Shown here in pieces: positions 19,855-47,751 of a stretch of DNA of 47,810 nt; the first letter of the stretch is position 1, and each line of letters starts with the position of its first letter. A program made the translations under genes and the position numbers. This DNA is from Planctomycetota bacterium (GTDB lineage Bacteria > Planctomycetota > GCA-002687715 > DRQF01): NCBI GenBank assembly GCA_011369445.1, contig DRQF01000122.1, positions 1 through 47,810 on the forward strand, given 5' to 3'. Below the pieces are notes generated by a model, which saw only the letters and a program-made list of their open reading frames with translations, was not told the DNA's origin and searched no databases.

Positions 19855-21960
19855 TCAGTGAAGCCTGCGGACGATCGGTCGGCGATCTTCGATGCGTCGC
19901 CGCAGATCGTAGACCCTCACGTTCCACGCGCCGGTCCACCGCCAGGCGTCCCTCTCGAAATCCGGCGTGTCGGGGCCGCCCCGAAAAGGGATGGGCCATC
20001 CGGTCCAGTGGATGCGTCGATGACCGCCGACAATCTCGATGCAGTCGTAGTGTGATTTCAGGTCGTCGTAGAAGGCGGTCCAATGCGGGAAACGTGTGCG
20101 CTTGTGACGGCTCACGTAGTTGTCATAGGAAACTTCGCTGGTCACGAGCCATTCCGCGGGATGGCCCTCTCGAACAGGATGAGCCCTCTGCTCCCGATGG
20201 AACTGGCGCCGTTCCCAGGCGCGACCCGGTTCCTTGAGAAAGGCGGGAGTTCGTTTGGGAAGAGCAGCCCTCGCGATGCGCAGACGTTCCACGGGCGGCG
20301 CCTTCGGCCCTCCTGGGAATACGGGCGGAAGGATGTCCCAAAGACCGTCGTATCCGGTGTACGCCCCCGGATCGAGACTCGGTCCCTTTTCCGACTGCCA
20401 AGGCTTGAGCATGACAATGACGTCGTACCGACGATGAGCGTAGCGTCGCGCGGCCTCTTTCTCGGCCACGTACCGCACGCGATCGTGTTCGAACTCGGCA
20501 ATCCGGCGCTGGTGATGACGCCAGCCCCCGCTCCCCTCCTCGAGCACGTTCATGCGCCGTTTCGACCGCTCGATCTCGTCATCGATGCGAGCGAGGATCC
20601 AGTCGAAGCGCTCCGTGTTCGGGATCAGGGGAAGGATCTCTCCATCATTGACGACGGTGGAGTCGGCGGGGACATTGTCTTGGAGCCATTCCCAAGCCCG
20701 CCGATAGCTGTGCTCGCGGTAAACGTTTTGGAGGTGGGTCGCGTGAGACCAGACGGGAAACCCAGGCAAGGGAAGCACAAGAACAGCGGACAGACCCCAC
20801 CGCACAAGGCGACGCCGGCTCTCCCAGACGCGATCCAACGCCACGGCCGCGAAGAGCGCCATGAAAGGTAGAAGGATCACGAGATGGTTGGCCCGCGTAT
20901 AGAGGAAATTGGCGGCCGTAAGGAGGAAGAGAAGAACGAGAACGCTGGTCATGGCCAGTACGGCTCCCGGCCTCCTCTTCGGGTCGCGAATCGCCATCAC
21001 AGCTCCCAGGACTGACAGTATGGTCAACGGGAGGGTGGCCACCGACCAGCTCGCAAGTTCTCGAAGCGCTCGTGCGAGCAGCACCCATAAGGGCGAGGTC
21101 GCGGGGTCCACCTCGCCAACGGCGAAACCGATCATCCTGCCCAGATGCTGGAGTTGGGGCTTGAGGATCGTCTCGAAGTAGGTCGGGTCCAAGAAGTTGT
21201 AGGGTGAACCGACGAAGCCAGCGAGCACCATGGCCAGGAAGGCCGACCCCAGGAGAAACGCTCCCTTCGGCGCGCTCTCCGGTCTCTTGCGGACGCTCAT
21301 GAAATGGGCAGCCAGAAGTGTCGCCACGAGAGCGATTGGGCTGTACTTGACGGCCCAACCCAGTCCGATCCAAACGCCCGCGCCGATGTAGTTCCTTGGG
21401 ACGGCCCGGCCCTTGCCGATGGCGAGAATGAACGAAAAAGCGGCCACGGCGCAGAACGTGGCGAGGACGTCGTGCTTGGCGACCTGTGCCCAGAACACAT
21501 GCCCTGGTGTGATGGCCAAGAGCAACGCCGCAAGCAGACCGACCCTCAACGACCCCCATCGTCGACCGATTCCCAGCAGAAGCACGCAGGTCAAGGCGCC
21601 CCAAAAAGCGTTGCTCGCACGGGCGATGAGATAGAACGCACCCCGCTCCCGATTCAGGAAATGGGAGGCGAAATCAGCGGGTGAATCGTACTCGTGGATG
21701 ACGTAACGGCCGATGAGGTAATAGACGCCGAATTCGAAGAAATGCCGGTAGTAGCCGAGAGCAGGCTTGTTGAACCAATGGGGATTGAGGTCGAGTCCGG
21801 TCGAAGGATTCCAGAATGCGACGGAGCGCTCGACGTTGTTGATCTCGTCTGGATAGAAGCTCATCGGGTAGCCGTTCCCGGCAATCCCGGAGAGCCGCAG
21901 GCCGAATGCCACCACGAAGACCAGCAGCAACCATTTCTTCGGCGTCCGCTCAGAATTCAC
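19855..21960 (-). CDS. Membrane glycosyltransferase (GT39/ArnT-like, dolichyl-phosphate mannosyltransferase type)
   Basis: Multi-TM protein; PDEINNVERSVAFWNPS acidic first loop motif; GTG start at 21960 overlapping the preceding gene inferred from VNSERTPKKW. Confidence 0.75.
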   Translation of the reverse strand: MNSERTPKKWLLLVFVVAFGLRLSGIAGNGYPMSFYPDEINNVERSVAFWNPSTGLDLNPHWFNKPALGYYRHFFEFGVYYLIGRYVIHEYDSPADFASHFLNRERGAFYLIARASNAFWGALTCVLLLGIGRRWGSLRVGLLAALLLAITPGHVFWAQVAKHDVLATFCAVAAFSFILAIGKGRAVPRNYIGAGVWIGLGWAVKYSPIALVATLLAAHFMSVRKRPESAPKGAFLLGSAFLAMVLAGFVGSPYNFLDPTYFETILKPQLQHLGRMIGFAVGEVDPATSPLWVLLARALRELASWSVATLPLTILSVLGAVMAIRDPKRRPGAVLAMTSVLVLLFLLTAANFLYTRANHLVILLPFMALFAAVALDRVWESRRRLVRWGLSAVLVLPLPGFPVWSHATHLQNVYREHSYRRAWEWLQDNVPADSTVVNDGEILPLIPNTERFDWILARIDDEIERSKRRMNVLEEGSGGWRHHQRRIAEFEHDRVRYVAEKEAARRYAHRRYDVIVMLKPWQSEKGPSLDPGAYTGYDGLWDILPPVFPGGPKAPPVERLRIARAALPKRTPAFLKEPGRAWERRQFHREQRAHPVREGHPAEWLVTSEVSYDNYVSRHKRTRFPHWTAFYDDLKSHYDCIEIVGGHRRIHWTGWPIPFRGGPDTPDFERDAWRWTGAWNVRVYDLRRRIEDRRPIVRRLH

Positions 21961-23131
21961 CCAGGGCCTCCTCGAATACGGTCGAGACGTCCTCCGCGAC
22001 ATCGTCCCAGTCCTGGCGGCGCCCCCACTTCGAGATCGCCGTGCGGTTCCAGGACCGATCGAGTGCCTCAAGAATCGCCGCGGCCATTCCATCCTCGTCG
22101 TCGAAGGGGACGACGAGCCCGTGATCCTCGGCTCCCACGACCTCCCGGTTGCCGCCCACATCGGTGGTGACCACCGGCGTGCCGCAGGCCAGGGATTCCT
22201 GAAGCACGTTCGCCCAGCCCTCGTTGCTCGTCGACAAGACGAAAAGATCCGCGGCCCGGTAGAAATCGGCGAGTTCCTCGTGGGGTCGCTCGCCAAGCAT
22301 GAGGACGCGGTCCCCCAGACCGAGATCGCGAATCGAGGCCTCCAAGTCCCTTCGAAAATCGCCCTCGACACTCCCTCCCCCCACGAGCACGTAGAGCAAG
22401 TCCGGGTGCCGTTCCAACAGGCGTGGCAGGATGCGAATCACTCTATGGGCCCCCTTCCTCGGTACGAGCCCCCCCACGGTCAGAAGAAGGGGCCGACAGG
22501 GAGGGAGACCCAGTCGCGCCACCGCCTGGTCCCTCTCCCCAGGCCGAAACAGACCCGTGTCGATGCCGTTGGGGATCACGCGACAGTCGAAGTCGACGTC
22601 GCGGCCGACGAGGCGTCGCGCCTCGTCCGCCAGGGATCGAGACACCGCGACGACGCGCGTTGCGCCCAGCAAGGCCTCGCGAATGCGCCCTCTCCTGCGA
22701 TCGGCCAGATAGCTCGGAAACGTGCCCCTCAAAGTGATCACCGAGGGGATTCCCAAACGTTCCGCGACACGGACGGCCGCGTAGCCGGCCGGGTAAGCGA
22801 AGTGGGCGTCGAGGAGGTCGGGCCGGAACGGTGAATCGCGAAGGGCCCGCTGCACGGACACGGCCAGACTGGGCCCGTCCCAGGTCTTGAAGACGCCCGG
22901 GACATAGGGGAAACGCAGGTCTCGTACGAGGACGCCGTCGACGGATTCCTTCTTTGGAAAGGGACGTCTCGCTTCCTTGCGGAACCAGCGGAACCCCGGG
23001 CACCAAGGACGACACCGCCAGACCTCCAGGGCATGCCGCCCCGCCAAGCCCTTGAGCCGCTCTTTGATGAAGACTCCCTGCGCGGGGGCAACCGCCGAGG
23101 GGAAAATCGTGCTGAGCGAAAGGACGTTCAT
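21950..23131 (-). CDS. Glycosyltransferase family 4
   Basis: LLTVGGLVPRKGAHRVIRILPRLLERHPDLLYVLVGGGSVEGDFRRDLEASIRDLGLGDRVLMLGERPHEELADFYRAADLFVLSTSNEGWANVLQESLACGTPVVTTDVGGNREVV; start at 23131 (MNVLSLSTIFP). Confidence 0.93.
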   Translation of the reverse strand: MNVLSLSTIFPSAVAPAQGVFIKERLKGLAGRHALEVWRCRPWCPGFRWFRKEARRPFPKKESVDGVLVRDLRFPYVPGVFKTWDGPSLAVSVQRALRDSPFRPDLLDAHFAYPAGYAAVRVAERLGIPSVITLRGTFPSYLADRRRGRIREALLGATRVVAVSRSLADEARRLVGRDVDFDCRVIPNGIDTGLFRPGERDQAVARLGLPPCRPLLLTVGGLVPRKGAHRVIRILPRLLERHPDLLYVLVGGGSVEGDFRRDLEASIRDLGLGDRVLMLGERPHEELADFYRAADLFVLSTSNEGWANVLQESLACGTPVVTTDVGGNREVVGAEDHGLVVPFDDEDGMAAAILEALDRSWNRTAISKWGRRQDWDDVAEDVSTVFEEALGEF

Positions 23132-25017
23132 GATCCTTTTCGTCCGAACCGTTCCAACCAGGTCGCGAAGACGAGAGCCAACCAGAGAACCCGGGCATGA
23201 TCCCGTTGCCCACGTCGGTGGGCCTCGAAACGACTCGCGAGAGCCGAGAGGTTCAAGAAACTGTCGAGGCCTCCTGGTGTGTCCAGCACTCGGTCCCGGA
23301 AGACGTCGGCCAGGTCCCTTCGCATCCAACCAGCGAGGGGCGGCGCAAACCCGCGCTTGGGAGCCCACGCCCAGTCGTCGCCTAGCTTTTCCGCGGCCAG
23401 TCTTCGGAGCAGGTACTTCGACTGTTTTCCCTGCATCTTCAGTTCGGCGGGAATCCGAAACGCCAGATTCACCATCTTTTGATCGAGAAGAGGAGATCGC
23501 ACCTCCAACGAGTTCGCCATGCTCATGCGGTCGACTTTCGTGAGGACCCCGTCCGCCAGATAGCTCTTCAGATCCACATGCAGGAGCCGACGGAGAAGAT
23601 CCCCTTCACCCGCATCGCGGAATCGTTCCTCCATGAGGGCGCGCGCCGACCAATCCCCCAAGGAGGCCCGGAAGTCGCCCCCGTAGAGTTCCTGCTTGTC
23701 CTCCGGGCGAAAGATCGACATGTCGAGAAAGTAGGCCTCTTCCGGGGAAACGGAAAGGTTGCGCAACCCCCACTTCAGACGCAGCGGTTTGGGGAAACCG
23801 TCGAGCTTCGGGTAGGCGCGCGCCACGGCGCCTACCACCCGGCGAAGCGTCGGCGAAAGATGCGCGCGAACCCGATCGATTGCCAGATTCTGGCCGTATC
23901 GCCATGCGTACCCACCGAAGGTCTCATCCCCGCCATCCCCCGAGAGGGCCACCTTCACCTCGCTTCGCGTGGCCCGCGAAACCATGAAACTCGGGAGGGC
24001 GCTGGAGTCGCCGAAGGGCTCGTCGAGATAGGAGGTCACCGCATCGAGTACGCTCAACACGTCGTCGGACATCCGCTTTTTCTCGTGGATGAGCCCCAGC
24101 CGGCTCGCCAGTCGCTCGATGCGCCCCATCTCCGCGTCGTCGTCATCGGAAAAAAGGATCGTCGTGGCCTTCAGCGGTCGCGGAGATAGAGACTGGGCCT
24201 CCTCGACGACCAACCCGGAATCGATCCCTCCCGAGAGGAAGACCCCCAGAGGGACGTCGGACCTCAGCCGAATGCGTGTCGCCTCGTGAAGGGTCTCCTC
24301 GATGCGTTCGAGGGCCACCTTCTCGTCCGTCACGGAATCTTCCGTCGGAGGGCGCCAGTATTCTCGAACGCGAATCCCCTTGGCATCACGCACGAGCAAG
24401 TGGGCCGCCGGAAGTTTTTGGACGTTTCGAAAGACGGTGAGCGGAGCCGGAATGTACTGGAACGTGAAGAACGCATCCACCGCCCGGGGGTCGACGTCGC
24501 GAGGAAGGTCCGGAACGGTGAGAAGGGCCTTCAGCTCGCTCGCGAATAGGAATCGTCCACCCATCTCGGTCCAGTAGACGGGCTTTTTCCCCAGGCGATC
24601 ACGCACGAGTACGAGGCGATCGTTCTTTCGGTCCATGAGCGCGATGGCAAACATGCCGCGCAAGTGATCCACGAAGTCGAGGCCGTGCCGTTCATACAGA
24701 TGCGGGATGACCTCGACGTCGGACCGCGTCCTGAATCGAACCCCCGCACCCTCCAAATCCCTCCGCAGCTCGACGTAGTTGTAGATCTCGCCGTTGACGA
24801 CGGTGACGATCGAGTCATCCGCGTTCCCCTGGGGTTGGTCGCCGGTCTCGAGGTCGATGATCGCCAGCCGCGCATGCCCGAGAACGACACCGCCATAGCT
24901 CTCCTGGGTGGTGCCATCGGGACCACGAAGCTCCAGAGCCCGACACATCTGCTCGACCTCGACGCGGCTTCTCGCCAGACGCCCCACGGGAGCAATGACC
25001 CCAGCGATCCCACACAC
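23128..25017 (-). CDS. Asparagine synthase (glutamine-hydrolysing), XrtA-associated amidotransferase type
   Basis: N-term MCGIAGVI (class II glutaminase), LGVFLSGGIDSGLV (ATP-PPase loop), SGDGGDETFGGY. Confidence 0.93.
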   Translation of the reverse strand: MCGIAGVIAPVGRLARSRVEVEQMCRALELRGPDGTTQESYGGVVLGHARLAIIDLETGDQPQGNADDSIVTVVNGEIYNYVELRRDLEGAGVRFRTRSDVEVIPHLYERHGLDFVDHLRGMFAIALMDRKNDRLVLVRDRLGKKPVYWTEMGGRFLFASELKALLTVPDLPRDVDPRAVDAFFTFQYIPAPLTVFRNVQKLPAAHLLVRDAKGIRVREYWRPPTEDSVTDEKVALERIEETLHEATRIRLRSDVPLGVFLSGGIDSGLVVEEAQSLSPRPLKATTILFSDDDDAEMGRIERLASRLGLIHEKKRMSDDVLSVLDAVTSYLDEPFGDSSALPSFMVSRATRSEVKVALSGDGGDETFGGYAWRYGQNLAIDRVRAHLSPTLRRVVGAVARAYPKLDGFPKPLRLKWGLRNLSVSPEEAYFLDMSIFRPEDKQELYGGDFRASLGDWSARALMEERFRDAGEGDLLRRLLHVDLKSYLADGVLTKVDRMSMANSLEVRSPLLDQKMVNLAFRIPAELKMQGKQSKYLLRRLAAEKLGDDWAWAPKRGFAPPLAGWMRRDLADVFRDRVLDTPGGLDSFLNLSALASRFEAHRRGQRDHARVLWLALVFATWLERFGRKGS

Positions 25018-25021
25018 TGGA

Positions 25022-26380
25022 TCAGGACTCCAGGGAGGGCGACGTGGACGCCCATGGCCGTGTTCGAACGGCTGAGGGACCGACGGCGGGCCGCTGCCGC
25101 CTGGCCAGGTCCTTCACGACCAAGACGAAGGCCGTGGATGCACCGAAGTACCACCACAAGAAGTCGATCTTGAAGTGGCTCCCGAACACCGATGCGATGA
25201 TGAAGGCCCACATGCTGGCCTCCATGACCTGACTCGTGATCCAGACGCGCAATCGCAGCTCCTCCGGCAAATGAATCCTGCGCACGGAATAGCAATTCAC
25301 GAAGTACATCACGAAAAGGAGGAAGAACGGAATCGCGCCGATCAACCCTCCCTCGGCCAGGGCCTGAATGAACGTGTTGTGACAGACGAACCCGGTGTAG
25401 CCCTTCACACCCTCCAGAGCCGGATCGTAAGGGCGTGGTGTGTCGCCTGCGAAAAATCCCGTGTATCGAGGCGAGAGAATCTGGAAGTTGTCATGCCCGA
25501 CGCCGGTGATGGGTGACTCCTTGAACATCGCCCACCCGGCCTTCCACAGCTCAATCCGGCTTTGCGCCGCGAAACCTCGGTCTTCCTTGCCCGCGAAAAT
25601 CGTCTTGTAGCGCTCCCATTTCGCCTCGGGAGTGATGGCCACGAACATGGCCACGAACAGCAATGCGGTCCCGGCACCTAGCATCACGCGACGCGATCGG
25701 ACCACCAGGAAGAAGAAGATCATGGCAAGCGTCAGCACACCGCCGCGAGAGCCCGTCCCGGTGACGGCTAGAAGCAGGAGCGGAGTGAGCGCGATCGCAA
25801 ATCGTTTTTCCCACTTCTTCCCGTAGAGAAATCGGAAGTAGAGCAAGGGTAGAGCCATCACGAAGGTCATGGCGAGGTAGTTGGAGCCCCCGCCCTGGGC
25901 CGCCGAAACGTTGGCTCGGGCAGCGTCGCCGGAGCCGAGGGTGATGATCACGACGGACTTGAGGGTCCACAGATTGAAGAGGATGTTCGCCCAGAGGAAG
26001 TACTCGATATCCTTCAGATGCCTGAAGAGCTGGATCACCAGAAATTGAACGATGACGAGCTTCAGAATGATGACTGTCGTGTCATAGGAGATGTCGGGGC
26101 TCACACGGGCCGTCGCGCTGGAGACCAGCATGCCAAGCAAAAGGAGGCCCGAAACGACCAAAGAGGGCGTGATTCTCAGATCCTTGGCCCTCATCGCCCA
26201 TCCGGCGATGGTGCAAAGCGTGATCCAGTAGACGGGCTGCCACCAACTCGGCTGCTGCCAGACCCCCGGTCGGAAATAGTAGAGCAGCATCGTGGAGTAG
26301 ACGCCCCAGAGGGGTTTCCTGAGGGCCACGATCATGAGGATCGGCACGATGACGAGCATGACCGCAAAGCGCAGTGACAT
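25022..26380 (-). CDS. O-antigen ligase/Wzy-like protein (exosortase-associated O-glycosylation ligase type)
   Basis: Multi-TM; YFRPGVWQQPSWWQPVYW; SRGGVLTLAM; GVGHDNFQIL...CHNTFIQALAEGGLIGAIPFFLLF. Confidence 0.85.
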   Translation of the reverse strand: MSLRFAVMLVIVPILMIVALRKPLWGVYSTMLLYYFRPGVWQQPSWWQPVYWITLCTIAGWAMRAKDLRITPSLVVSGLLLLGMLVSSATARVSPDISYDTTVIILKLVIVQFLVIQLFRHLKDIEYFLWANILFNLWTLKSVVIITLGSGDAARANVSAAQGGGSNYLAMTFVMALPLLYFRFLYGKKWEKRFAIALTPLLLLAVTGTGSRGGVLTLAMIFFFLVVRSRRVMLGAGTALLFVAMFVAITPEAKWERYKTIFAGKEDRGFAAQSRIELWKAGWAMFKESPITGVGHDNFQILSPRYTGFFAGDTPRPYDPALEGVKGYTGFVCHNTFIQALAEGGLIGAIPFFLLFVMYFVNCYSVRRIHLPEELRLRVWITSQVMEASMWAFIIASVFGSHFKIDFLWWYFGASTAFVLVVKDLARRQRPAVGPSAVRTRPWASTSPSLES

Positions 26381-27505
26381 CTATCGCCCCTCCATGACTG
26401 GGCGCCCGACAGCGCTGCCCGCGACCTCTTCGTAGAGTGAGGTGTACCGCTCCACCATACGCTCCAGAGTAAACCTCTCCGTCACACGATCCCGCCCCGC
26501 CGCCCCGAGACGACGGCGCTCGTCCGCGTCGTCCCGCAACCGCTCGAGCGCACACCGCAGAGCGGTGGTGTCGCCCGAGGGGACGAGTACGGCCTCGTCA
26601 TCGCGACCGACCACATCCGCGTTGCCGCCCACGTCCGTGGCGATCACCGGCACGCCGCAGGCCATCGCCTCCACGAGCGTGTTCGACATGCCCTCGTAGA
26701 TGGAGGGCTGGACGAAGACGTCCGCTGCCTTCAGGACGGCGGGAACGTCCTTGCGGAGGCCCAAGAACACGACGGCGGAGCCGAGACCGAGATCGCGAAC
26801 GAGCGCTTCCAATCGCCCCCGCTCGGGTCCGTCCCCGGCGATCACGAGCCGGTCCGTGGGCGCTCGATTGCGGCACGCGTGAAACGCCCGAATGAGGAGG
26901 GAAAAGTTCTTGACCGGATCGAGACGCCCCACGGCGGAGACCGTATACGAGGACCTCAGCCCCTCGTCGGCCTCGTGCTCGCCCACACGCGCCAAATCGA
27001 TGCCGTTCGGAATCACCTCGACCATTCGCTCGGGGACGCGAAAGTCCCTCACGTATTCCCTTTTCATCGTGGGAGTGAGCGTGACGATCCGGTCCGTTCG
27101 GAACGCAAGAAGCCGCCCCAAGACCCGCCTTCGCAGGATCTCGCCCCGCGCGTTGTGAACATCCCTCCCGTGAAATCCGTGGACGCATGCCTTGACGCCA
27201 GCAGCCCGCGCTGCGCGAATGCCATCCGGATAGGTCCCCCAGTTTCTCGTATGAAGGACTTGGGGTGACAGTTCCTTCAAAGCTTCGGCCACACGCCGCC
27301 ATGCGCGGGGGACGCGGCCCCGCTCGAGCCCGAGCGATTGCACCTTCCCCGCGTTCAGCCTCCAAGAGAGGTCCGTCTCGGGCCACATGGAGAGGACGAC
27401 GTGTTCTACCCGGAGGGCATCGGAGTGATTGATCAGGTTCACGATCCCGTTCTGAAGCCCGCCGGTGTCGAAGGAGGTCACGAGATGGACGACGCGGAGG
27501 CTCAT
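26381..27505 (-). CDS. Glycosyltransferase family 4 (resembling the XrtA-associated TIGR03088 type)
   Basis: VVHLVTSFDTGGLQNGIVNLINH; VSAVGRLDPVKNFSLLIRAF; PSIYEGMSNTLVEAMACGVPVIATDVGGNADVV. Confidence 0.88.
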   Translation of the reverse strand: MSLRVVHLVTSFDTGGLQNGIVNLINHSDALRVEHVVLSMWPETDLSWRLNAGKVQSLGLERGRVPRAWRRVAEALKELSPQVLHTRNWGTYPDGIRAARAAGVKACVHGFHGRDVHNARGEILRRRVLGRLLAFRTDRIVTLTPTMKREYVRDFRVPERMVEVIPNGIDLARVGEHEADEGLRSSYTVSAVGRLDPVKNFSLLIRAFHACRNRAPTDRLVIAGDGPERGRLEALVRDLGLGSAVVFLGLRKDVPAVLKAADVFVQPSIYEGMSNTLVEAMACGVPVIATDVGGNADVVGRDDEAVLVPSGDTTALRCALERLRDDADERRRLGAAGRDRVTERFTLERMVERYTSLYEEVAGSAVGRPVMEGR

Positions 27506-28698
27506 GAGCAGGCCTCCGCGGCGGCGCATTCCTCGAGGAGCCTCTCCATGGCCGTCTCGCAGGACCGCCATTCGAAACGATCCGCCACGAAGCGTCGCGC
27601 CGCCTCACCCATGGCCCGGGCGGCTCCCCGGTCACCGAGAACCTTGATCGCGGCGCGTGCCAAGGCGTCCGCGCTCTCCCCCACTTCGAGATGCTTTCCG
27701 CTCTCGGCTCCCAGCGAAGAGAGGATCTTGGGCGTCGTCACGACCGGGAGTTCCCAGGACATCGCCTCGAGGACCTTGTTCTGAATCCCCCTGGCGATCC
27801 GCAGCGGAATCAGGGCCGCGGAAGCCTTCGCCAAGTGAGGCTCGAGGCTGTCCACGGCACCGTGGACCTCCACGCCGGGGAGGCCTCCCAGCTCGACGAC
27901 GTCCCGGGTGGGATTACGCCCAACGATGTGAAAGCTCGCTTCCGGAATGACCTCGCGAATTCGCGGAAGGATCTCCTTCGCCCCGAAGACAACGGCGTCG
28001 ACATTCGGAAGGTAGTCCATGGCGCCGATGAAAAGCAATCGGGGTTCCGGCCGATCCTCCGGGATGAGGCTCGACGGTGGCAAGTCGACACCGTTCCCGA
28101 TGACGTCGATGCGCGCCTCGGGCACCCGGGCACGCAGCATGGCGGCCTCAGGTTCCGTGCAGAGAACGGTCGCGTCGAAATCCCGAGCGATATCCTCTTC
28201 GTAAGCGGCGAGCCTCTTCCCTTCCATGGCGTAGAGACGCCGACGGAGGAGACGTTCCCGTTCGGAGTAGCTCGCAAACTTGGAGGAATCCACGTCCACC
28301 ATGTCCATCACCCGGGGAAGCGACGGGTGACGCTTCAGGTACTCGGCCGTCGTCGATGAGAAGCACAGGGCGACGTCGACGTCCTCCTTCGCCAAGATCG
28401 CGTCCACGGCTCTTTGCGACTCGGCCTGATGAAACCATGCCAGAGAGAGAGGATCGCTCCCGAGGAGTCGTCTCGCTGCCGAGAGGCCGGACGCCAGGCG
28501 AGGCATGGCCGCCACATGGACACTTCGACAATACTGGTCCAATGCCGCGACATGGGGCCGATCCCCCTCGTCATCCAGAAGGGTGACCAAGTGGATCTCG
28601 TGGTTCTCCGCAAGATGGGAGAGCCAGCGAAAAGAACGGATCTTGTCCCCCTTGTCCGGCGGGTAGGGGATTCGATGGACAAGGTAGAGAATGCGCAT
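27502..28698 (-). CDS. Glycosyltransferase (resembling the XrtA-associated TIGR03087 type)
   Basis: MRILYLVHRIPYPPDKGDKIRSFRWLSHLAENHEIHLVTLLDD; LLFIGAMDYLPNVDAVVFGAKEILPRIR. Confidence 0.88.
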   Translation of the reverse strand: MRILYLVHRIPYPPDKGDKIRSFRWLSHLAENHEIHLVTLLDDEGDRPHVAALDQYCRSVHVAAMPRLASGLSAARRLLGSDPLSLAWFHQAESQRAVDAILAKEDVDVALCFSSTTAEYLKRHPSLPRVMDMVDVDSSKFASYSERERLLRRRLYAMEGKRLAAYEEDIARDFDATVLCTEPEAAMLRARVPEARIDVIGNGVDLPPSSLIPEDRPEPRLLFIGAMDYLPNVDAVVFGAKEILPRIREVIPEASFHIVGRNPTRDVVELGGLPGVEVHGAVDSLEPHLAKASAALIPLRIARGIQNKVLEAMSWELPVVTTPKILSSLGAESGKHLEVGESADALARAAIKVLGDRGAARAMGEAARRFVADRFEWRSCETAMERLLEECAAAEACS

Positions 28699-28702
28699 GG
28701 TG

Positions 28703-29638
28703 TTAGACGCTGTCGAGGGCGTCCGAACGGTCCGCATTCGTCAGGACGCAACCCACCAATCGAACTCCGGTCATCCCCAAGGAATCGATCGCACGCTCGG
28801 TCATCCGGCGCGGCGTGGCGCCCAGCTTGACTACGAAGAGGACTCCGTCCGCTTCGTGACCGACGACCGACGCATCGCTGGCGACCGACACGGGCGGGGT
28901 GACGATGAGAACTCGATCGAACGCGCTCCTCCACGTGCTGAGAGCCCGCGCAACCCGAAGTCCGGTGATCAATCCGCCGGGATTGGCGACGGCCGGGCCC
29001 GCCGAGACGATTGACAACCCGTCGATGCCTGTGGGGCGAACGACCTCCTCCGGAAGAGCACGATCGGCGAGCACTTGGCTGAGGCCGGGATTGTCACGGG
29101 CGAGCCCGAAGATCGACTCGACCTCGGGGGAACGCAAGTTGGCATCCACGATCAGGACGTTTTCGCTGCCCCCTTCGGCGAAGCACACCGCCAGATTCGC
29201 AGTTACGACGGCGACACCTTCGTGGGGGACGGCACTCGTCAACGCGAGGATCTCCGGGGAAGGATCGAGAACGGAAAGATTCGTGCGGATCGAACGGAAC
29301 TGTTCGCTGCGAAAGTCCGCGGGAGAGTGCCAGGACAGCAGGGCATCAGCGAACGGGGTCACGCTCCCCATGGTGGGGACGGATTCGGTCACTCGGTTCA
29401 ACACCCGGGCCACACGACCCGCCGGAGCCGCCTTTTTCTCCTCGGACCGCGGCGGGGAGGTCGCCGCTCGTCGAACCGGCTCGGGGCGCGCAGGGGGCGT
29501 GGAGCTCCTCGGCGCCTTGGGAGTGCGAGCCACATCGCTGGACGAGGCGCCGCCGCTCTCGGGGCCGCCGGAGGCTTCGGAACGCCTCCGAGCTCGCTCC
29601 CGTTCGGCTTTCTTGAGCGCGTCGTGTATCCGTCCCAT
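28703..29638 (-). CDS. CpsD/CapB (BY-kinase)-like protein, predicted catalytically degenerate
   Basis: MGRIHDALKKAERER N-terminus and EQFRSIRTNL, VLIVDANLRSPEV family motifs; Walker A lysine and Walker B Asp replaced, no tyrosine in the whole protein. Confidence 0.8.
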   Translation of the reverse strand: MGRIHDALKKAERERARRRSEASGGPESGGASSSDVARTPKAPRSSTPPARPEPVRRAATSPPRSEEKKAAPAGRVARVLNRVTESVPTMGSVTPFADALLSWHSPADFRSEQFRSIRTNLSVLDPSPEILALTSAVPHEGVAVVTANLAVCFAEGGSENVLIVDANLRSPEVESIFGLARDNPGLSQVLADRALPEEVVRPTGIDGLSIVSAGPAVANPGGLITGLRVARALSTWRSAFDRVLIVTPPVSVASDASVVGHEADGVLFVVKLGATPRRMTERAIDSLGMTGVRLVGCVLTNADRSDALDSV

Positions 29639-29714: not shown

Positions 29715-30623
29715 TCATCGTGTTCGGTCCGCGAAGAAGGGAAGCCGCAAGAACGACTTCTTCTTTCGCGCCTTTTCTTCCTGGATGGCCGTCTGCTTGA
29801 ACGACCATTCCGGACCCTCGATCTCCTTGATCGCCGTAATGACGACCTGGCTCGTGATCTTGTGGGTCTCTTCGGTAAACGCGACCAGAAAGGCCCGATC
29901 GCAGACCAGATTGATCAACCGAGGAATCCCATGACTGTATCTATAGATGATGTGAATGGCTCGACTCGAGAATCTGGCGGCATGGTGAGATCCGGCGACT
30001 CTCATCCGATGCTGGATGTACTCCAGCATCTCTCGCTCGCCGAGAGCTTCGAGGTGATACCGCATCACGATTCTCTGCCGAAGCTGCACCAGGCTCGGAT
30101 GGGCCAGTTTTTGGCGCAGTTCGGGCTGGCCAAGCAGGAGGATCTGAATGAGTTTATCCCGCTCCGTCTCGAGGTTGCTGATCAGGCGCACTTCCTCCAT
30201 CGTGGCGAGAGGGAGATTCTGCGCCTCATCGATCACGAGGACCACGTTGCGGTCCTGAGACAACATCTCGATGAGAAACTCGTTGATGGCGTCCATGATC
30301 GCGAGTCTGTCCACCCGCTCGTCGGGAAGCTCGAGTCCGAACTCTCGCGCCACGGTGTACAGGAGTTGGACCCCGTTCAACCGCGGGTTCGTCACCAATG
30401 CCGTGGCTGCGCCGTCCTCTTCGAGTTCCCGCAACAGGCTCCGACAAACGGTGGTCTTCCCAGCGCCGATCTCTCCCGTCAGGACAGCGAAACCCTTTCG
30501 CTGTCCCACGGTGTACATCAACTGAGCCAGAGCCTCGTTGTGCCTCTCACTTGGAAAGTAAAAGCTCGTATCCGGCGTGTTGTTGAAGGGCGGCCGCGAA
30601 AACCCGAACCATTCCTCATACAT
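29715..30623 (-). CDS. AAA ATPase, ExeA/GspA-like (XrtA-associated ATPase type)
   Basis: MYEEWFGFSRPPFNNTPDTSFYFPSERHNEALAQLMYTVGQRKGFAVLTGEIGAGKTTVCRSLLREL; VVLVIDEAQNL. Confidence 0.93.
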   Translation of the reverse strand: MYEEWFGFSRPPFNNTPDTSFYFPSERHNEALAQLMYTVGQRKGFAVLTGEIGAGKTTVCRSLLRELEEDGAATALVTNPRLNGVQLLYTVAREFGLELPDERVDRLAIMDAINEFLIEMLSQDRNVVLVIDEAQNLPLATMEEVRLISNLETERDKLIQILLLGQPELRQKLAHPSLVQLRQRIVMRYHLEALGEREMLEYIQHRMRVAGSHHAARFSSRAIHIIYRYSHGIPRLINLVCDRAFLVAFTEETHKITSQVVITAIKEIEGPEWSFKQTAIQEEKARKKKSFLRLPFFADRTR

Positions 30624-30629
30624 GCCGCC

Positions 30630-32270
30630 TCATCTCCCCTTGTAGATCGAATCCATGAGATCCGCGAGGAAGGGCGGCAGGAAATGCTGAAGCCCTTTCG
30701 AAAAGTACAAGACGTGGAGCGCACCGACGATCAACGCGACGCAGCCCAGAATGATCCAAAGGCTCCGATTGCGCTTTTTCTGCTCCGCGATCTCTTCGTC
30801 CGTCGGGATGCAGGCCACCTCGCCCAGGATCGGCAGAGGCAGCGTGGCCTGCACCTGACTGGATGACGTGTAGGTCATGCCGGAGAACTCTTTCAGGAAA
30901 GCCAAGCCGAGCCCCAAAAGGAGTCCTGCGGCGGCGCCGAGTCCGAGAAAGAGTGGAACTGACGGGAAGACAGGCGGATCCGAGTCACGCGGATATTCCT
31001 GGACGTCGAAGAGGTCGCCCCCCTCTGACTTGATGCGATTCCACTCACCTTCGATGGTGGCGAATTTCTTCTGGGCCTGGATGACCCGCTCGTTGGCGCG
31101 GCCGATGTCGCGGCGGAACTTGTCATCCTGCGCCTGGAGATCCGGAATCCGCTCCAGATTCTTCCGCACGGTGATGAGCCGTTTCTCCACCTTGTCGAGG
31201 GAACGCTTGACGCCCTCGATCTGGGCCAACACATCGTCGCGACGCTCGACGAGGGTCTGGTAGAGCTTGTTCGGCCCCACCTCCTGACCGCCGGGGATGA
31301 GTTCGTCCATCGCGGCGTAGCGCCGCTCGAGGCTCTCGATCTTCGTCTTTTGCGCCCTGACCGTGGGCGTGAGATCCGTCAAGCCGTTCACGGTGAGCAT
31401 GACGTTCAGCTTGGCCCGTTCCTGATCCAGAAGGAGCTTCAGATCGCTCCTCTCCGGGTTGGGAACGAACTTCACGGTGACGGAGCTGGTCTTCTGGTCG
31501 CGAATCTGGGCCAAGACGCGCTGAAGCTGCCCCTGAAGCCCATTGAGCGTCACCTCCAGTTCGGTGCGCCGCTCCCGAAGCGACCCGGACTCGTTGGCGA
31601 GTTGGCGCCTCACGGAGACGAGTGAATAGTCGGGACTCGAGCGAAAGGCGTTGTACTCGGCCTGAAGGTCGACGAGGGTGCGCTCGTGGGACCTCAAGCT
31701 GGACTCGGCCGCGCGATAGAGACGTTCGGCGAGGCCCCGATAGCGATTCTTGAAATAGTTGCGATACCCGTCCAGCACCTCGCTGACGAACAGTGCCACC
31801 TTCTTCCGGTCACGCCCCTGATAGCTGATCGTCACGAGGTCCGACCCCGACTTCGTGAACGAGGGCTTCACGACGAGGTTCTTGTCGATGTACTTGAAGA
31901 AATCAGAGAGTTCCTCCGGGTCGTTCAGGTTGAATCCTTCCGTCAATCCGACGCGGCGCACGATCTCCATGTAGAACCCAGGACGAATGATGTCCGTACC
32001 GATCGTGGCGAGAAGCGGCTTGTGGGGAACGACGGCCTGCGTTCCTGCGAGCAGCCCGCGGGTCAGGCCCGGGTCGCGAACCTTGAACTGGGTGAACGAC
32101 TCGTACTTGGGCGGGATGACGTAGGCGATGAGCCCCGCCACGACGGTCATGATGAGCAGCGGGAAGATGATCGTTTTGGGTCGCCGCGTGAAGACCCCCA
32201 AGTACTCGACCAGACCTGGCCCCTCGACCTCCGTCGGAAGCGCTTGTTTGACTTCGGTGACAGCCATCAT
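30630..32270 (-). CDS. Polysaccharide chain-length determinant (Wzz/GumC-like)
   Basis: N-terminal TM, long coiled-coil region, C-terminal TM (IILGCVALIVGALHVLYF). Confidence 0.88.
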   Translation of the reverse strand: MMAVTEVKQALPTEVEGPGLVEYLGVFTRRPKTIIFPLLIMTVVAGLIAYVIPPKYESFTQFKVRDPGLTRGLLAGTQAVVPHKPLLATIGTDIIRPGFYMEIVRRVGLTEGFNLNDPEELSDFFKYIDKNLVVKPSFTKSGSDLVTISYQGRDRKKVALFVSEVLDGYRNYFKNRYRGLAERLYRAAESSLRSHERTLVDLQAEYNAFRSSPDYSLVSVRRQLANESGSLRERRTELEVTLNGLQGQLQRVLAQIRDQKTSSVTVKFVPNPERSDLKLLLDQERAKLNVMLTVNGLTDLTPTVRAQKTKIESLERRYAAMDELIPGGQEVGPNKLYQTLVERRDDVLAQIEGVKRSLDKVEKRLITVRKNLERIPDLQAQDDKFRRDIGRANERVIQAQKKFATIEGEWNRIKSEGGDLFDVQEYPRDSDPPVFPSVPLFLGLGAAAGLLLGLGLAFLKEFSGMTYTSSSQVQATLPLPILGEVACIPTDEEIAEQKKRNRSLWIILGCVALIVGALHVLYFSKGLQHFLPPFLADLMDSIYKGR

Positions 32271-32277
32271 TCGCTCC

Positions 32278-33057
32278 TCAGAAACCCGTTCCGCGACGGC
32301 GCCGCGGGAGTCTGCCCGTCTGGATGAAAAGGACCGTGTCCGCCGCCTCGCTCAGGTTGAGTGAGAGGGACTTGAGGGGCAGCGTGGCCTGGTAGAGAGT
32401 CTGGGCGATTCTGGCAAAGAACGAGGGCTGGAAATATACGATATCGTCGGGACGAAGTTGGATATTGCCCGCCGTGTAGCCGTTCACAAACATGTCATAG
32501 ACATTGATGTCCAGAACCTGCGGATGCCGCGGATCTCCTCGAATGACCTTGAGATGGCAATCATCGGCCAAAAAGTCGATCCCCCCCACGTCCGCGACGA
32601 GATCTAGGACCGTATAGTCTCCCTGAAGAGGCAGCGCCCGCGCCCGGATGCCACCGCGAAGCTCGGTCGTGAAGACGTAGATTCTCTTGCTGACGATGCG
32701 CTGAGGCGTCACCACGACAGAGACCCCGCGGATGTAGGGGCTGAGAAGCAGTTGGATCTTGCTTTGGATCTGCTCGGTCGTGAGCCCCGCCACCTTCACG
32801 GGACCGACGTAGGAGACCTGGACGGTGCCGTCGGCGAGAATGGGCTGCAGGGAGTCTAGGTCCGTATTGTTGGCGATCTGAATGCTGATCACGTCGCCGG
32901 GACCGAGGGTCCATTCGTCCTCATATTCGGGCTGCGCGTACTTGTGTCCAAAGGCACGGGTGTTCACCCGGTTTCCGAACTCCTCGTACTTACTGTTCGG
33001 CCCGTTACAGCCCACGGTCAAGATCACCATGAGCAACGCCAGAAGCGGTTTCATCAT
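32278..33057 (-). CDS. Polysaccharide export lipoprotein (Wza-like, Poly_export/SLBB)
   Basis: Lipobox MILTVGC-like; YEDEWTLGPGDVISIQIANN; VSYVGPVKVAGLTTEQIQSKIQ. Confidence 0.92.
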   Translation of the reverse strand: MMKPLLALLMVILTVGCNGPNSKYEEFGNRVNTRAFGHKYAQPEYEDEWTLGPGDVISIQIANNTDLDSLQPILADGTVQVSYVGPVKVAGLTTEQIQSKIQLLLSPYIRGVSVVVTPQRIVSKRIYVFTTELRGGIRARALPLQGDYTVLDLVADVGGIDFLADDCHLKVIRGDPRHPQVLDINVYDMFVNGYTAGNIQLRPDDIVYFQPSFFARIAQTLYQATLPLKSLSLNLSEAADTVLFIQTGRLPRRRRGTGF

Positions 33058-46604: not shown

Positions 46605-47609
46605 TTAGGGGGCAGAACCATCCAGCAGATCGGCGGGGGCGTCCACCGCGGGAGCGCGACGGAGCATGGCTTCCAGGGTGTCCGCATCGGACGAAGCGAT
46701 CCGCTCCGCGAGCTCCCGAGGGATCTCCCCGAATCGGGCGACGAGGAGGGTCTCCAGTCCCTTCCGGAGCCCTTCCCGCAGGCCCTTGTCCAGGCCCTCC
46801 TGCAGCCCCCCCTGCCAACCCTTCTCCAGGCCCTCGTGGAGTCCTTCTTCCCTGAGCCGTTCCGCTGTCGTTTTGATCATGGTCTTGGTCTCCTCGGATT
46901 CCTGGGCGAAAGGGAGGGCGTGCACCTCCTCGGGGGCGATGTCGGACACGAAGTAAAGATACCACACCATGGCCCTGAGAAGCGAAAGTCCTCCCTTCTC
47001 CTCAACCGTGGCCCGAAACAGATCATCCCATTCCCGAAGCCGGCTTCGAATCTCTTTTCCCCGGCCGTGATTCAGAAGAAGAACCAGCAGGGCCGCGGCG
47101 CACCTCCCCAGACGCCTGCGGATCTCCCCATCGTCGAAGCGACCCAGGTCGATGACGTGGACGATCACGTTCGTCCTCGATCCCGGATTCCCCTCCTTGC
47201 GGGCGTAGAGTTCCTCGAATTCGCGGGGCGCCGACCACCGACTGGCCCCGTGATACAGGACCACCACGTGAACATTGGGAAAGCGCGCGTTCGGCCCCAG
47301 GGACCGTTCGACGTCCTGATAGAGGGTGGTCTTGTGGGCCAAGGCCCTGAGGGGAACGTTGGGGGTTTGTCGACTCAAGTGCTCGACGACGATGAGGTCA
47401 CGGGGCTCCTCTCCCCCGTCCAAGGCGTAGAGGAAATCCGGCTCGCTCCGACGCAGGTCCGGGTCGATGAGCACGTCTCTCAGACGCACGAGCCGCCCCT
47501 CGGTGGGGCCACACGGGAGGGGCGGTTCCGCCAGACCATCGAGGATCGCCGCCATGCGATCGACATCGTCCAGGAGAGCACGCACCAGTCGATCGTGGGG
47601 TTGAGCCAT
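46605..47609 (-). CDS. Rpn family recombination-promoting nuclease / PD-(D/E)XK transposase-like protein
   Basis: MAQPHDRLVRALLDDVDRMAAIL; RRSEPDFLYALDG...DLIVVEHLSRQTPNVPLRALAHKTTLYQDVE; C-terminal (E/K)GLxxG repeats; start at 47609 chosen. Confidence 0.8.
   Translation of the reverse strand: MAQPHDRLVRALLDDVDRMAAILDGLAEPPLPCGPTEGRLVRLRDVLIDPDLRRSEPDFLYALDGGEEPRDLIVVEHLSRQTPNVPLRALAHKTTLYQDVERSLGPNARFPNVHVVVLYHGASRWSAPREFEELYARKEGNPGSRTNVIVHVIDLGRFDDGEIRRRLGRCAAALLVLLLNHGRGKEIRSRLREWDDLFRATVEEKGGLSLLRAMVWYLYFVSDIAPEEVHALPFAQESEETKTMIKTTAERLREEGLHEGLEKGWQGGLQEGLDKGLREGLRKGLETLLVARFGEIPRELAERIASSDADTLEAMLRRAPAVDAPADLLDGSAP
46755..46844 (-). repeat. In-frame degenerate 12-bp tandem repeat encoding GLxEGLxKG units
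   Basis: GLHEGLEKGWQGGLQEGLDKGLREGLRKGL. Confidence 0.8.
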
Positions 47610-47751
47610 GGAGTCGCCTTTGGGAATCAGGGAGTGCCGCAACAAGCGGGCTTCCACTGCCAAGACGGAGCCGAAGGCGAAGGGGTGACGCTCATTCTAC
47701 AAACCGACCGGAGCCCCAAAGCTCCCCAGAACCATGGATCTCATCCAACGA

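Follow-up and report, generated by a model that had tools for sequence, protein, structure and literature searches.

Two published systems pair a BY pseudokinase with a PCP-2 protein: EcpK/EpsV of Myxococcus xanthus and HfsB/HfsA of Caulobacter crescentus (PMC12004946). EcpK is a stand-alone protein of the BYK fold that has neither catalytic motifs nor a Tyr tail, and it serves an EPS pathway with a kinase-less PCP-2. Walker A' is missing from it as well, along with several elements of secondary structure; it carries a basic helix at the C-terminus, and its gene does not lie beside the PCP gene (PMC12004946). HfsB is likewise paired with a kinase-less PCP-2 and is needed for its Wzx/Wzy pathway, here the holdfast pathway of an alphaproteobacterium (PMC12004946).

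In systems with BY-kinases, a juxtamembrane helix-strand of CapA and Wzc makes the contact with the kinase domain, and the interface of the CapAB octamer is formed half by the EX2RX2R motif and half by the Tyr cluster (PMC3795738). Two inactive BYK homologues, CapB1 of Staphylococcus aureus and PtkB of Bacillus subtilis, have been discussed as pseudokinases (PMC3795738).

We analysed a 47 810 nt contig (the window) from a Planctomycetota MAG (G000; 4.5 Mb, 90% complete). Its main EPS locus encodes what is, on the evidence of its sequence, a protein of the EcpK/HfsB kind: a BYK fold with the Walker A and B residues absent, no Tyr cluster, and a linked kinase-less PCP-2. The preliminary description of this DNA offered a non-catalytic BYK homologue as a new idea, which the systems above anticipate. 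Since the nearest relatives found here are planctomycete kinases with intact motifs, an origin independent of EcpK and HfsB is suggested.

The pseudokinase gene and its fold

The gene (28703..29638, minus strand, ATG start) encodes a 311 aa protein with a fold like that of CpsD and the Wzc C-terminus. It matches the TIGR01007 profile above the cut-off (E 7e-36, 123.6 bits against 108). It shares its domain with the XrtA-associated tyrosine autokinase (TIGR03018) and EpsG (TIGR03029), and the rest of its locus matches families of the XrtA system; unlike those two, it lacks the catalytic residues and the Tyr tail, and its scores (109 bits against the curated cut-off of 230.65, and 114 against 314; E-values about 1e-31 to 1e-33) fall below both cut-offs. 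A Pfam search of the protein gave zero matches. Its closest solved relatives by sequence are the BY-kinase domains of BceF, CapAB, Etk and Wzc, and an AlphaFold2 model built on an alignment of nine class orthologues (core pLDDT about 90) has the Wzc kinase domain 3la6 as its top Foldseek match (E 1e-17). The fold is retained, as the preliminary description had held.

All motif positions that follow are on the minus strand. The N-terminal helix GRIHDALKKAERERARRR (29573..29632; H3-22 in the model) occurs at every complete N-terminus in the class and leads into a disordered linker at about residues 24-72. The ring-interface motif EX2RX2R is retained as EQFRSIR (29285..29305; E112, R115, R118). 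Walker A is degenerate (TSAVPHEGVA, 29210..29239): it reads TSAVPHEGVAVVTAN, with Lys replaced by V142 and Ser/Thr by A143. In Walker B (VLIVTPP, 28892..28912) the Asp has become V246. There is no Tyr among the 311 residues and hence no C-terminal Tyr cluster; the chain ends without a tail past TNADRSDALDSV. At the 3.1% Tyr frequency of the neighbouring genes, the chance of finding no Tyr is about 6e-5 for the whole protein and about 2e-3 for its 205 aa kinase domain alone.

These losses are as first described from the letters; two other readings of the motifs needed correction. Walker A' (VLIVDANLR, 29132..29158) had been called retained; its first Asp and its Arg are in place, but DxDxR has become DANLR, so that the second Asp is Asn and the motif is only partly kept. 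In this respect the window protein still differs from EcpK, in which Walker A' is gone. The Phe of EQFRSIRTNL, taken as a mark of inactivity where Tyr is usual, is uninformative, being found in 17 of 54 mostly intact kinases from elsewhere in the phylum. Compared with active BY-kinases (CpsD, CapB, Wzc), then, the protein shares the fold and EX2RX2R, and lacks the Walker A GK[ST] with its P-loop Lys, the Walker B Asp and the Tyr-rich C-terminus. It also differs from CapB1, which keeps its nucleotide site (crystallised with ADP-Mg, 4jlv) and is inactive for another cause.

The export locus

The locus has the same order in 11 genomes of the class, as far as their contigs reach: OPX, PCP, AAA ATPase, kinase-like gene, stp1, (stp2), Wzy, (amidotransferase). 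In the window all these genes are on the minus strand. The pseudokinase gene lies within the PCP cluster, unlike ecpK. The OPX gene (32278..33057) encodes a Wza-like outer-membrane polysaccharide export protein (PF02563, E 7e-17). Next comes a Wzz/TIGR03007-like PCP without a kinase domain (30630..32270; PF02706, TIGR03007 below the cut-off), whose nearest solved relative by sequence is PslE (9v75, E 5e-5). Three TM segments are predicted in it, with hydropathy peaks at residues 34-52, 440-458 and 503-521. The cytoplasmic loop between TM2 and TM3 (30765..30896) carries the motif SxxQVxxxLPLPILGEV, which is conserved in all 11 class loci and also in loci with intact kinases. By its position after TM2 we infer that this loop is the counterpart of the CapA/Wzc juxtamembrane helix-strand, and it is the likely docking site of the pseudokinase. 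With three TM segments predicted, docking would involve an internal loop, where EpsV offers a free C-terminal tail.

The AAA ATPase (29715..30623; TIGR03015-like, E 2e-89, 299.5 bits against a cut-off of 324.5) has an intact P-loop and shows the highest conservation in the locus (54-73% identity). Downstream are a GT4 glycosyltransferase, stp1 (27502..28737; TIGR03087, 383 bits against 317), a second, stp2-like one (26381..27571; TIGR03088), a Wzy/O-antigen ligase-like gene (25022..26380; TIGR03097-like, PF04932 E 1.5e-21) and an asparagine-synthase-like amidotransferase (23128..25017; TIGR03108-like). With its listed ATG, stp1 runs into the end of the pseudokinase gene; because alignments to its relatives mostly begin at about residue 8-16, translation probably begins at the ATG at 28698. 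Two long minus-strand ORFs elsewhere in the window, 19855-22371 and 46605-47663 (838 and 352 aa), have no NCBIfam match at E 1e-10.

Exosortase was sought by PF09721, with no match in G000 (90% complete). Among the class genomes it occurs only in five of family f3, some with an intact kinase and some lacking one; its distribution therefore does not follow that of kinase loss. It shares a contig with the EPS locus in G004, G006, G010 and G011; G000, G001, G002, G003, G005, G007 and G008 have no detectable exosortase gene, and their EPS loci, where found, are of the XrtA type. We found no PMC paper that combines at least four of the terms Planctomycetota, exosortase, tyrosine kinase, polysaccharide export and PEP-CTERM.

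Distribution and probable order of the losses

The class sample of 12 genomes is identical to the order-level set (one order). A homologue with an open reading frame was found at the same locus in 11 of them; the twelfth, the fragmented MAG G002, gave no match. The orthologue survey bears out the losses of Lys, Asp and Tyr: the Tyr tail is kept in none of the 11 (3-14 residues follow the last strand), the Walker B Asp in two and the Lys in three. Nine have lost both the Walker A Ser/Thr and the Walker B Asp (kept in 0/9), and eight of these nine have lost the Lys as well, the exception being G008, where it stands in an otherwise broken P-loop (EAKD). The remaining two, G010 and G011, have intact GKS and VDT and no Tyr tail; they too have Asn at the second Asp of Walker A'. 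Tyr is depleted throughout the gene in this class, to 0.5% against 1.8-3.1% in neighbouring genes. The state outside the class is different: in 54 homologues sampled elsewhere in the phylum, nearly all stand-alone, the Lys is present in 50 and the Ser/Thr and Walker B Asp in all 54. The planctomycete proteins L128 (G045), L142 (G115), L107 (G074) and L113 (G061) are stand-alone BYK homologues with T, S, R and R, respectively, in place of the Walker A Lys, and keep the Walker B Asp.

Within the degenerate set the catalytic positions vary freely, and the residues that stand at the Lys position (V, A, S, C) have little in common, while P248 and D255 are invariant (9/9 each). The Glu and first Arg of EX2RX2R are kept in all nine and the second Arg in eight (K in one). 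The first Asp and the Arg of Walker A' are kept in all class members.

It had been proposed that close orthologues with intact motifs would point to local decay or sequencing error. The sole same-family orthologue found (G001/L005, 45-48% identity) has the same losses throughout; intact GKS and VDT appear only in the more distant G010 and G011, themselves tail-less, which look like intermediates rather than evidence of sequencing error. In a kinase-domain tree from which the motif columns had been removed, the class forms one clade (97/89), with G010 and G011 inside it, adjoining G008, and these two are likewise nested in a locus tree built from five genes and rooted among outgroups. Their position within the clade contradicts an origin of their kinases by replacement from outside. 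The locus tree rejects a single origin of P-loop loss, with the nine degenerate loci as one clade (AU p = 1e-4); the kinase tree does so weakly (p 0.02). The joining points of f2, g4 and G008 differ between the two trees, and both trees require three losses. With the degenerate loci rejected as one clade, the Tyr tail was probably lost once and the ATP site afterwards, at least three times, an order that rests on 11 genomes and parsimony and assumes that the P-loop was not regained.

A further likely pseudokinase is found at a second EPS locus of G010, whose main-locus kinase keeps its P-loop. This TIGR03018-like protein (L067:6425-7681) adjoins another OPX/PCP pair and has no Walker A or B (CVMVTSPATSRAAYL, WVLLSCRPV).

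Proposed role and rival explanations

The reading that we judge clearly the most probable is that the window protein is a phosphorylation-independent BY pseudokinase scaffold, the stand-alone cytoplasmic partner of a kinase-less PCP-2-type co-polymerase. The pseudokinase would dock on the cytoplasmic TM2-TM3 loop of the PCP, and its retained EX2RX2R interface would hold PCP protomers in a ring. Because the Tyr-cluster half of a CapAB-type interface is missing here, any such ring must be held differently. Binding and release would then help the PCP/OPX export machine to assemble, or set the timing of its assembly, with neither ATP hydrolysis nor Tyr phosphorylation, and so may affect polymer length or export. 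What was observed in favour of a scaffold is the catalytic loss, shared with relatives, the synteny, the purifying selection on those relatives, the predicted fold, and the retention of both the interface motif and the PCP loop; EcpK/EpsV is an experimental precedent and HfsB/HfsA a further one. The earlier proposal of a non-catalytic BYK homologue acting with a Wzz-type PCP is thereby well supported, though not new in kind.

Ordinary gene decay or an assembly error would also remove motifs, and the kinase gene does evolve faster than its neighbour (48% identity between G000 and G001, against 73% for the ATPase). Against this, all 11 frames are open, the locus order is fixed, the losses recur in another assembled genome (G001), and dN/dS, a check proposed at the outset, is low: 0.055-0.073 for the degenerate pair G003/G007 and 0.12-0.17 for G004/G006, values comparable to those of the adjacent stp1 and higher than those of the ATPase. 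These figures belong to pairs of relatives, as the window gene is saturated at synonymous sites against its only same-family orthologue. The related degenerate copies are under purifying selection, simple decay was rightly dismissed in the preliminary description, and we give this explanation almost no credence. An unlikely, though more serious, rival to the scaffold is a remodelled pocket that still binds a nucleotide or other ligand and serves for sensing or switching, with no phosphotransfer. The first Asp and the Arg of Walker A', P248 and D255 are kept around the old site, and G008 retains the Lys in its broken P-loop; yet Lys, Ser/Thr and Walker B Asp have been lost together in eight genomes, and the dissimilar Lys replacements suggest lost constraint and not a new conserved site.

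The two other rivals bring in a second enzyme. The adjacent AAA ATPase could have taken over energy coupling and drive the pseudokinase/PCP complex; its adjacency, its intact P-loop and its conservation speak for this. However, the same ATPase adjoins intact, Tyr-tailed kinases elsewhere in Planctomycetota (for example at L133, L134, L135 and L136), so that it does not track kinase loss and is a normal part of the locus, not a substitute ATPase. The special partnership first suggested for the two neighbours is not supported, and the takeover is rejected in its strong form and considered improbable overall. Alternatively, the pseudokinase might act through mixed rings to regulate some other, active BY kinase of the cell, as proposed for inactive BY-kinases and suggested for S. 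aureus CapB1/CapB2 (PMC3795738). LMW tyrosine phosphatase homologues are indeed present in all 12 class genomes, in G000 outside the window's contig, so that no cognate phosphatase of this type lies at the locus. No second BYK above the TIGR01007 cut-off was found in the nine genomes whose copy is degenerate, one of which is 97% complete; G000 is 90% complete, and a second BYK could sit in the missing part. The low-scoring BYK matches in those genomes resemble MinD/ParA-type ATPases. The one genome in which a canonical Wzc was found is G011, and its own kinase at the main locus has an intact P-loop. We therefore regard mixed rings as very improbable.

Returning to the scaffold, a wider reading, which we hold to be evenly balanced between right and wrong, is that this small class has generally come to control its main PCP-2 without phosphorylation: the tail would have gone once, in the common ancestor, and the ATP site later in at least three independent events, with the ring interface under selection throughout, and living intermediates would show the order from kinase to scaffold. 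PCP-2 assembly and disassembly are held to be driven by cycles of phosphorylation, a picture that a few pseudokinase systems contradict. What this locus adds to those systems is losses that are class-wide, tail-first and repeated, together with surviving intermediates. Since intact-P-loop, tail-less orthologues and fully degenerate ones share a single locus in this class, one can ask directly by experiment whether it is the tail, the ATP site or the ring interface of the kinase that the export machine needs.
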